Shown piece after piece: positions 28,348 to 31,125 of a DNA stretch of 40,549 nt. The stretch comes from Flavobacteriales bacterium (lineage in GTDB: Bacteria > Bacteroidota > Bacteroidia > Flavobacteriales_F > PHOS-HE28), in assembly GCA_020437805.1 (NCBI GenBank), contig JAGQVV010000160.1, positions 1 to 40,549 of the forward strand. Reading direction: 5' to 3'. The position numbers were made by a program, and so were the translations under genes. Under the pieces are notes generated by a model. The model worked only from the letters and a program-made list of their open reading frames with translations, was not told the DNA's origin and made no database searches. How positions within the stretch are numbered: the stretch's first letter is position 1; each line of letters starts with the position of its first letter.

Positions 28348-29205
28348 ATGATCATCCATGGAGGCCGTAGCCGATTGGCCCCTACACCCAGTGGATACCT
28401 CCATGCGGGCAATGCGTTCAATTTCCTGGTCACAGCGTTGTTGGCGGAGCACTTCAGCAGCACGCTCGTTCTACGGATCGATGATATTGACGCCGAGCGT
28501 ATCCGTCCTGAATACGTGGAGGACATCTTCCGGTCAATGGAGTGGCTCGGTATCCGGGCGGATGATGGGCCCTCCGGACCGGAGGAATTGTATCGGACAT
28601 GGTCCCAGGTCCATCGTATGCCTCGCTACGTTGAATTGTTCGATGCGCTAAAGCGGCAAGGTCATTTGTACCCATGCGTGTGCTCCCGCGCCGAAATGGC
28701 CGAACGAGTGTCGCGGTGCGCGCCGCATTCGTGCAGGACGGACCCTCCGGCCCAAGTACCCGGCGGAACGCCATGGAGGCTCAGCATACCTCGGCCTTGC
28801 CCTTCGACTCTCTTGGACCTGCAGGGCCGTGTTGATGAACATAATCTGGCCGTGATGATGGAGGATCCCATCGTACTTGTTCGCGGAACGGGTCGACCTG
28901 CTTACCAACTGGTGTCCTTGATGGATGATGTTGATATGGACATCACATTCATTGTTCGTGGTGCGGACCTTCTGCCTTCCTCGGTTTGCCAAAGTCACAT
29001 GGCCGAACGCGCAGGACTTGAAGCATTCCGGGAAGTCCGCTTCCTGCACCACCCGTTGACCACTGGACCGGATGGTCGGAAGTTGTCGAAGTCGGCCGGG
29101 GCATCCTCATTGTGCGCCATGCGCGAGTCCGGGGGATCCCCGGATGTGCTCCGGCAGGAGGCGGAGCGCTATGTGGATGAGCTTCTGGGCAGCTTCAATG
29201 CCTGA
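28348..29205 (+). CDS. gluQ: glutamyl-Q tRNA(Asp) synthetase
   Basis: This short class I synthetase-like enzyme (285 residues) attaches glutamate to the queuosine base in the anticodon of tRNA-Asp. The HIGH-region motif is RLAPTPSGYLHAGNAFNFL and the KMSKS-region motif is GRKLSKSAGAS; a Cys cluster CVCSRAEM plus CAPHSC matches the zinc site of the family. The anticodon-binding domain of true glutamyl-tRNA synthetase is absent, as expected for GluQ. It follows tRNA-Leu by 24 bases, with the start fixed at ATG 28348 because the open frame upstream runs through the tRNA. Its last 11 bases overlap the end of the convergent Fic-like gene. A truncated GltX paralogue is the alternative. Confidence 0.9.
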   Translation: MIIHGGRSRLAPTPSGYLHAGNAFNFLVTALLAEHFSSTLVLRIDDIDAERIRPEYVEDIFRSMEWLGIRADDGPSGPEELYRTWSQVHRMPRYVELFDALKRQGHLYPCVCSRAEMAERVSRCAPHSCRTDPPAQVPGGTPWRLSIPRPCPSTLLDLQGRVDEHNLAVMMEDPIVLVRGTGRPAYQLVSLMDDVDMDITFIVRGADLLPSSVCQSHMAERAGLEAFREVRFLHHPLTTGPDGRKLSKSAGASSLCAMRESGGSPDVLRQEAERYVDELLGSFNA

Positions 29206-30334
29206 ACGCCAGTAGGCGCTCCAGACGTACCCTGAACCCATGAGGTCCTCGAAGCACGGTGCCGATATGTTCGAGATGGTCGATATCACGCCGGAGCGTC
29301 TTTTCAGATACCCCGGCATACATCTTCGCTAGTGTCGGGGATAGGGTGGGTATCGCGTTCAATGCCACCGGTCCATCCTGCAAAGCGAGGTCCAGTAGGA
29401 TCTGCTCTTGTCGCCGCGCTGGTGCTGCTTCGGATCCCGCGAACAGGTCGGCAAGGTATGCACGCCACTGTCCTTGGGCTTGTATGATCCTTGCTCGGGA
29501 CCGCAATTCGGTCAGTCCTTTGTTCAACCCTCGCAACCCGAAGGCCAAAAAGGGTATGGCATCGGGTACCCCGAGGGCCGCCTGTTGCACCTGCCGCCTG
29601 TATTCATGCTGGTGCTGAAGGAAGAACGTGGATAGGAGATGCCCCGGAACACTACCTGCACCCGCAGAGACCAGGATATGTTGGACCATGGTACCGGTGA
29701 TGCGTGCGTTCGTGGAACTGAATGGGCGTATCCACTGGATGTGGAGTTCGGTGATCAATGCATGCAAGAGGGCATAGGCCATGCGCTCCTCATTGGCGGG
29801 TGCGGCAAGCTCAGGTCCTTGAAGCCAATCAAGGAGTTCGGTCATGAATAGCGGGATGACATCAGGCGGTACTCCGTCCAGTGCTTTTGTTCCTGCAGGG
29901 ATCGTTCGCCAACGGCCATTGTCCCGCGCGCTGGTCGGATCGATCAAAAGGGCCTTTTGGTACGACAGGACCATGTCGGGGTCGAGACGTGGGAGATTCG
30001 AACCATCTGCGGCGATGCGTTGCCAAACATAGAGCAGGCCATCCAATTCCAGGAGACCTTGCTCCTGTGAGGGTAGTACCTTCAGGACTCCGGTCAAGTG
30101 CTGCATGACACGGCTCACGGTCAGCGACGAACCGTCCATGACCATCCGTGCGTGGATCCCTTCTGCGATGGTCTCCCGCTCAAGAGCCTTGCCCTCGGCG
30201 AGTGGTAGTGGTACCCGCGTCAAGGTCCTGATCCCGGTCACACATTCTCCGAGAACGAGCCAAAACGAAGGTGGCGCTTGTCGGAGGTCCAGACGAAAAT
30301 CCAGCCATGTTATCGTCTCGTCGAATGCCCGCAT
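29195..30334 (-). CDS. Fic-family protein with degenerate active site and C-terminal winged helix
   Basis: Active Fic enzymes transfer AMP from ATP to proteins using HPFx2GNGRx2R. The 379-residue protein keeps the Fic architecture: the N-terminal ITWLDFRLDLRQAPPSFWLVLGE segment, the HARMVMDGSSLT region equivalent to the helix-alpha motif (61-72), and LHIQWIRPFSSTNARITGTM (198-216). Aligned to the core, catalytic His is Arg203 and both Gly residues are changed to Thr208 and Ala210, while Phe205, Asn209 and Arg211 remain. Catalysis as AMP transferase is therefore unlikely. The last 50 residues (LAKMYAGVSEKTLRRDIDHLEHIG) form a DeoR-like winged helix, so it may be a regulator. Its start codon lies in an 11-base inverted repeat. 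Confidence 0.85.
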   Translation of the reverse strand: MRAFDETITWLDFRLDLRQAPPSFWLVLGECVTGIRTLTRVPLPLAEGKALERETIAEGIHARMVMDGSSLTVSRVMQHLTGVLKVLPSQEQGLLELDGLLYVWQRIAADGSNLPRLDPDMVLSYQKALLIDPTSARDNGRWRTIPAGTKALDGVPPDVIPLFMTELLDWLQGPELAAPANEERMAYALLHALITELHIQWIRPFSSTNARITGTMVQHILVSAGAGSVPGHLLSTFFLQHQHEYRRQVQQAALGVPDAIPFLAFGLRGLNKGLTELRSRARIIQAQGQWRAYLADLFAGSEAAPARRQEQILLDLALQDGPVALNAIPTLSPTLAKMYAGVSEKTLRRDIDHLEHIGTVLRGPHGFRVRLERLLAFRH

Positions 30335-30356
30335 CTGTGTCCAAAGATGCGGGCAT
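30325..30356. repeat. 11-base inverted repeat across the start of the Fic-like gene
   Basis: ATGCCCGCATC (30325-30335) and GATGCGGGCAT (30346-30356) are perfectly complementary, separated by 10 bases. The left arm contains the start codon; a minus-strand -7-like CATCTTTG (30342-30349) sits in the loop and right arm. It could be an operator or a translation-blocking hairpin. Confidence 0.7.
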
Positions 30357-30477
30357 CATGAAATCCTGGAAAACAAGTAGTTGTATAAATGATGAACAAG
30401 TTCATGTCCACATCCATGTCCGACTGATCGTCCATCGCAATGTCCACGGTGGGATCGTCGAACAACAGGGGCGTTGA

Positions 30478-31125
30478 TCAGAGCCCGCCCTGCAAAAGAG
30501 CGATCAATGTGATCAACCCGGCCAGTGCCCCGATGGTCAAGGCGGCCACGGCGAATCCTTTGCCCGACCATTCATTCGTTCGTCCCTTCTTCACCGCGAT
30601 GGCGGCTACCAGAAGCGTGAGAATGACAGCAATGACAATGACCGGCGCACTGGTCCCAAGGATCCCATACGTGATGGTCCCAAGAGCAAGGGCAAAGGCG
30701 GGTATGGCCCATGGATTGAAATGCGGGGATGGAGTATCCTCCGGGACGATCGATGGAACTGTGGTGGTGCCGATTTCCTGCGTGTCGCGGATCTCGACCG
30801 GTGAGGCGATCAACGAGGCTTGGATCGAAGGACTTGCAACTACTGGACCACGCACCGGTACTGCAGGGTATATGTCGGACGTAAAGGCTGGATCCCTCAA
30901 GGCGACCACAGGGATGGTGGTGCGCCTTGTCAAGTGTTCCCGTTCAGTTCCGGGCTCCGTGCGCAGTGTTGAGCTACTTGAACGGAGGTCGATGTGCCAG
31001 CCCGACTGATGCCTACGTTTCTGGATCCCTCCATCATGGACCGTCCCTCGCACCCCGGAGCAGCCCGTTGATCCGAATGTGAGGAGCACGGCCACTACGA
31101 CACAAGGCTTCGATGTTGCTTCCAT
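30478..31125 (-). CDS. small membrane lipoprotein-like protein of unknown function
   Basis: The 215-residue product begins with a hydrophobic signal ending in GSTGC (Cys22), a possible but non-standard lipobox. A short motif IQKRRHQSGWHIDL follows; similar Lys/Arg-rich QKR-x-GWH/FH motifs occur near the N-terminus of many small Flavobacteriales membrane proteins. A low-complexity Thr/Pro/Ser region (about 65-130) precedes a block of hydrophobic segments (AIPAFALALGTITYGIL, PVIVIAVILTLLVAAIAV, GFAVAALTIGALAGLITL). So it is probably an envelope protein with a flexible middle. It lies between the Fic-like gene (143 bases away) and ade. I do not know the function. Confidence 0.7.
   Translation of the reverse strand: MEATSKPCVVVAVLLTFGSTGCSGVRGTVHDGGIQKRRHQSGWHIDLRSSSSTLRTEPGTEREHLTRRTTIPVVALRDPAFTSDIYPAVPVRGPVVASPSIQASLIASPVEIRDTQEIGTTTVPSIVPEDTPSPHFNPWAIPAFALALGTITYGILGTSAPVIVIAVILTLLVAAIAVKKGRTNEWSGKGFAVAALTIGALAGLITLIALLQGGL

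Follow-up and report, generated by a model that had tools for sequence, protein, structure and literature searches.

The gene at nt 29195–30334 on the minus strand of the window, that is, the whole 40,549-nt stretch of Flavobacteriales DNA analysed here, probably encodes an autorepressor derived from a class II Fic protein with an HTH, one that would bind DNA, repress its own gene and engage a partner, having kept operator recognition and lost AMPylation. The catalytic His is missing throughout a conserved clade of the genus that is under purifying selection, and a row of GGACAT direct repeats is tied exclusively to the gene. The catalytic centre was lost long ago, whereas the DNA-binding end and the evenly spaced GGACAT row before the start were retained; the protein therefore most likely persists as a gene regulator that controls itself.

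The pseudo-Fic protein and its clade

The ORF list of the window and its translation gave a product of 379 aa, in which residues 201–211 read WIRPFSSTNAR. Active Fic AMP-transferases possess the motif HPFx[D/E]GN[G/K]R with a catalytic His. At the corresponding codons 203–211 (nt 29702–29728, minus strand), translation and alignment gave RPFSSTNAR instead of the canonical HPFxDGNGR, with the changes H203R, G208T and G210A and with N209 and R211 retained; the product thus lacks the hallmark of an active AMP-transferase, and the replacement of His by Arg and of the two conserved Gly residues by Thr and Ala, with Asn and Arg surviving, is as given in the preliminary description. From these residues, we infer that all enzymatic activity has been lost. 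Class II Fic proteins carry an N-terminal inhibitory motif, [S/T]xxxE[G/N], which appears as T..xEG in the intact homologs and has become RMVMDG in the window protein. In FicTA toxin–antitoxin modules, the inhibitory helix is supplied by a small antitoxin encoded next to the Fic gene. The inhibitory-type helix sits within the window protein itself, and the neighbours of the gene are gluQ and a membrane-protein gene.

Taken alone, the protein scored below the Pfam thresholds for Fic (E=0.039) and HTH_DeoR (E=6e-4). The family profile matched human FICD in the PDB at E=4e-21, the AlphaFold2 model had a mean pLDDT of 87, and the top Foldseek match of this model was Coxiella Fic protein 2 (8cil, probability 1.00), in agreement with the all-helical Fic/Fido core fold. 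With the family profile and the predicted model, the Fic and winged-helix assignments, sub-threshold for the lone protein, are firm as predictions. The C-terminal DeoR-like winged helix proposed earlier was recovered in the model at residues 325–371 (nt 29222–29362, minus strand), with helices at 325–330, 333–338 and 344–357 and strands at 360–363 and 366–369. Key positions of its recognition region, YA..KTL.RD..L, are invariant, Y339, R349 and D350 being present in 23/23 genus members and 46/46 intact homologs. DeoR family regulators consist of an N-terminal DeoR HTH and a sugar-phosphate sensor domain; the window protein, with a C-terminal HTH and only a sub-threshold HTH_DeoR match over residues 340–363, falls outside that family. 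It belongs to a Fic-winged-helix family marked by full-length co-linear homology including the YA..KTL.RD HTH, and positions 1–382 of the family profile align to homologs from many phyla.

A first search of 58 genomes revealed clear members in 17 of the genus genomes, including that of the window. In a larger genus sample (45 same-genus genomes, Flavobacteriales MAGs), a profile search identified 23 members, one in the window's genome and the others in 22 further genomes; the E-values and trees are drawn from partly incomplete genomes. All 23 lack the catalytic His, which is replaced by seven kinds of residue (R 11, A 5, Q 2, E 2, S, V and C), so that the loss of His is general in close relatives while Arg itself, whose conservation had been in question, is found in only 11/23. 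The inhibitory Glu remains in 4/23 and Asp is present in 19/23, and Arg211 is retained in all but one. The members formed one clade (UFBoot 100, IQ-TREE, rooted on the outgroup), midpoint rooting having split it before outgroup rooting and the IQ-TREE tree resolved the matter. Within this clade, a subclade of 12 that includes the window protein has a broken GNGR (TNAR, GHAR, AGYR, GHHR and similar variants), and 9/11 members of the sister subclade have GNGR. The ORFs are full length with dN/dS of 0.12–0.24 for the closer pairs (six where dS was estimable), which supports purifying selection on the His-less family. Pseudogene decay and sequencing error, which the preliminary description would have suspected had relatives with an intact HPFx2GNGR been found, are ruled out by the full-length ORFs, the dN/dS values and the clade-wide His loss: the entire genus clade is His-less and conserved, and the intact relatives that were found lie solely outside the genus.

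Nucleotide sensing, also suggested earlier, would have the dead pocket bind ATP/ADP or a related nucleotide and thereby control DNA binding. The near-universal Arg211 and the GNGR kept by nine sister-subclade members are in keeping with it, as is the coupling of DNA binding with (de)AMPylation in Coxiella Fic2 (PMC10628234). However, the TNAR-, GHAR-, AGYR- and GHHR-type loops of the 12-member subclade remove glycines needed for the phosphate-binding turn. Because the window's subclade has also lost these anion-binding glycines, a sensor role is disfavoured there while possible in the sister subclade, and as an account of the window protein it is unlikely.

The pseudo-Fic gene and gluQ are convergent, their coding sequences overlapping by 11 bp at the stop codons (nt 29195–29205), and this close convergence recurs in relatives. 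In the closer relatives, mutS lies beyond gluQ and a short membrane-protein gene is located upstream of the pseudo-Fic gene; in the window, the product of the upstream gene (nt 30478–31125, minus strand) is short, has hydrophobic segments at its C-terminal end and gave no Pfam match. In 19 genomes without the pseudo-Fic gene, gluQ was found with no family member beside it, and the membrane-protein gene directly adjoins gluQ in seven or eight of them. The same genus also has a smaller Fic protein of a different type (L150, genome G015), which reads YLRPFTAGNGR, with His likewise changed to Arg.

Repeats at the start codon and upstream

The inverted repeat at the start codon, described earlier with 11-base arms, is in fact perfect over 12 bp (ATGCCCGCATCT / AGATGCGGGCAT, 8-nt spacer, nt 30325–30356), and the near-consensus -7 box between its arms is indeed present as CATCTTTG (nt 30342–30349, minus strand; consensus TAnnTTTG). 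A search for perfect repeats of 11 bp or more with short spacers gave about seven locations in the window (15 overlapping entries), compared to a shuffle mean of 0.5; the repeat exceeds simple chance, yet is not unusual for the window. Around the start in the 16 relatives examined, no perfect inverted repeat of even 8 bp was present, and the repeat, seen only in the window's genome, is therefore genome-specific and was rejected as a conserved operator. Thus, of the autoregulatory DNA-binding pseudo-Fic protein envisaged in the preliminary description, the His-less protein under purifying selection stands, together with its probable autoregulation, but its cis element has to be exchanged for the conserved one, the GGACAT direct repeats.

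In the upstream alignment of the genus, head-to-tail GGACAT repeats with a 12-bp period lie about 70–135 nt upstream; closer to the gene, copies at -20, -8 and +4 overlap the -7 box and the start codon. Candidate distal operator repeats in the window, all on the minus strand, are GGACAT at -111 (nt 30440–30445), a degenerate GGACGA at -99 (nt 30428–30433), and GGACAT at -87 (nt 30416–30421) and -75 (nt 30404–30409). The proximal candidates on the same strand are GGACAC at -8 (nt 30337–30342) and, within the coding sequence in the same 12-bp register, GGGCAT at +4 (nt 30325–30330). GACA at -7 to -4 was invariant in the 17 starts aligned (17/17). If CATCTTTG is a -7 box with the spacing reported in Flavobacterium (PMC6847099), the transcript would begin about 3 nt upstream of the ATG, and the -8 repeat would therefore cover the start site.

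Among repeated 5-mers within 200 nt upstream of the genus genes, the top pairs were GACAT and GGACA spaced 12 or 24 bp apart, with a shuffle maximum of 3. The best triple-repeat score was 0–2 mismatches in 15/23 genus loci, whereas none of the 115 shuffles had fewer than 3; some arrays are imperfect, that of one genus member having 6 mismatches. In the window's genome, the exact GGACAT-N6-GGACAT occurs once, at the pseudo-Fic gene, and triples with at most 2 mismatches occur three times, all at the same gene; no second strong array was found there. The array was absent from all 19 gluQ loci without the gene (0/19). A generic genomic repeat or a large regulon was rejected at the thresholds applied, the exact site being present just once in the window's genome. 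Most array-like matches elsewhere in related genomes were isolated GGACAT pairs or weakly matching triples, and the pattern GGACATNNATG, tried as a regulon marker, was uninformative, with matches in most genomes.

Intact homologs and the spread of the array

A scan of public genomes with the sister-subclade sequences (alignment A3) gave full-length homologs, about 29–37% identical, from Verrucomicrobia, Gemmatimonadota, Actinomycetota, Acidobacteria-type, Chloroflexi and other groups, whereas the genome-contig scan with the window protein as query gave zero matches; viral contigs searched with the window protein contained zero relatives. The aligned full-length homologs from other phyla possess His in 46/46 and the class II inhibitory Glu in 46/46; both were therefore eroded within the genus (His 0/23, Glu 4/23). 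Two proteins of another Bacteroidia family (L254 and L255, genomes G126 and G088) are also His-less, with WMQPF, and cluster with intact Bacteroidia proteins at 100, indicating that His was lost at least twice; they represent an independent His-less Fic-winged-helix lineage, with TGTC-type repeats upstream. From the intact homologs to the genus, mean information fell from 4.20 to 3.00 bits for the Fic motif and rose from 2.60 to 3.17 bits for the HTH helices; the genus set being less diverse than the intact set, the direction of this contrast counts and the absolute bits do not.

The repeats extend to the intact homologs. GGACA at 12 bp was their top repeated word and spacing (20/47; shuffle maximum 3), and 12/47 had a triple with 0–2 mismatches, a score that no shuffle reached, about 40% scoring 5 or worse; the set is uneven, with over a dozen Gemmatimonadota-type sequences, so that the counts are non-independent, although arrays occur nonetheless in widely separated groups. 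In 476 kb around the intact homologs, triples were located in the own upstream region of 22 loci and at only two further places, both just within assigned gene starts, the start codons of some homologs being assigned by script. The repeats are reversed (TGTCC) in other Bacteroidia, and among other Fic-HTH genes, taken as a control, GGACA was not in excess. By the presence of GGACA direct repeats of 12-bp period in its own upstream region, the window gene agrees with the Fic-winged-helix family.

Of the intact homologs, the six that carry Met346 are mostly without GGACA, and the association of Thr/Met346 with the operator gave a Fisher p of 0.0016; it is non-independent, since the Met loci include five of Verrucomicrobia type that closely resemble one another. 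Verrucomicrobia-type intact homologs (L179, L181, L182, L184 and L186) have RM in place of KT in the recognition helix, lack GGACA and have CGTCA/TTGAC words upstream that are common to them. An operator switch is possible in this group.

The arrays might be bound by another regulator, or be a promoter or RNA feature, with the winged helix serving something else. Promoter constraint could account for part of the conservation of the proximal copy, which overlaps the -7 box. This explanation is rather improbable, however: the array tracks the family through phyla whose sigma factors differ and does not occur at loci without the gene, it was not found elsewhere in the searched loci and is in reversed orientation in other Bacteroidia, and another Fic-HTH group carries a repeat of its own.

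According to the preferred autorepressor reading, the ancestor belonged to a widespread class II Fic-winged-helix family. Its intact members are probably self-repressing AMP-transferases, and their C-terminal winged helix would bind head-to-tail GGACA(T) sites 12 bp apart. The catalytic His would have been lost in a Flavobacteriales-lineage ancestor; the inhibitory Glu would have eroded as well, followed in the window's subclade by the anion-binding-loop glycines, with the winged helix and the operator retained. The window protein most likely occupies the distal array, from about -111 to -70, as well as the proximal repeats, which run across the -7 box, the transcription start and the ATG, and such occupancy would shut off its own transcription. 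The Fic fold would now be a dimerisation and ligand- or partner-binding module.

Comparison with known systems

HTH-bearing Fic proteins are common. Among the closest counterparts by description is CccR of Yersinia pseudotuberculosis, a class II Fic domain protein with a C-terminal HTH, which represses its own promoter by direct binding; unlike the window protein, it is a catalytically active, secreted T6SS effector, and its operator consists of two inverted 10-bp boxes, AGATAATCAT-N26-ATGATAATCT, rather than 12-bp direct repeats (PMC9755527). In the open-licence literature, CccR was the only Fic-HTH protein with a specific operator that was found, and no dead member kept for DNA binding was found. 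Coxiella burnetii Fic2, the best Foldseek match, shares the Fic domain and a DNA-binding C-terminal HTH, but is an active AMPylator/deAMPylator that binds random DNA with high affinity, a specific operator being unreported (PMC10628234). SoFic (PDB 3eqx, 3zcn) is a structural match in its Fic core and C-terminal winged-helix region, whereas it is an intact active enzyme with 13–14% identity across that match. BldC and other HTH proteins that bind head-to-tail direct repeats offer a precedent for the operator geometry, their folds being unrelated to that of the pseudo-Fic winged-helix protein (PMC5859096, PMC9723621).

Bartonella BepC and other Beps likewise have a non-canonical FIC motif, and for BepC enzymatic activity was not found and protein binding is its mode of action; in contrast to the window protein, Beps are host-targeted effectors with a BID domain and without an HTH, and BepC keeps His146 (PMC8401265). 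Some Fic proteins with non-canonical motifs perform other modifications (PMC8401265), but that the altered motif supports another reaction is hardly credible here, since the variable replacements of His cannot be a common new catalyst.

Another Bacteroidota Fic-HTH group with an intact HPF (L232–L249, e.g. L233, L235, L239, L248 and L249; proteins beginning MKPPY) has a 13-bp repeated palindrome, TGATAgTATCAaaTGATAgTATCA, just before the start codon in about nine loci. It is probably another family-specific autoregulatory operator.

Tentatively, with a chance a little short of even, the findings can be extended to a cross-phylum family of self-repressing Fic-winged-helix enzymes reading a 12-bp GGACA code, from which at least two Bacteroidia lineages would have become pure pseudo-Fic transcription factors, the enzyme dead and the operator and its reader kept, and a Verrucomicrobial subgroup would have switched both helix (KT to RM) and operator (CGTCA/TTGAC). 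A whole-family operator readable from sequence across phyla makes Fic-mediated autoregulation directly testable. The 12-bp direct-repeat geometry is a structural puzzle for a presumably dimeric HTH protein, and two independent pseudoenzyme conversions with the DNA-binding part retained reveal which function selection preserved.
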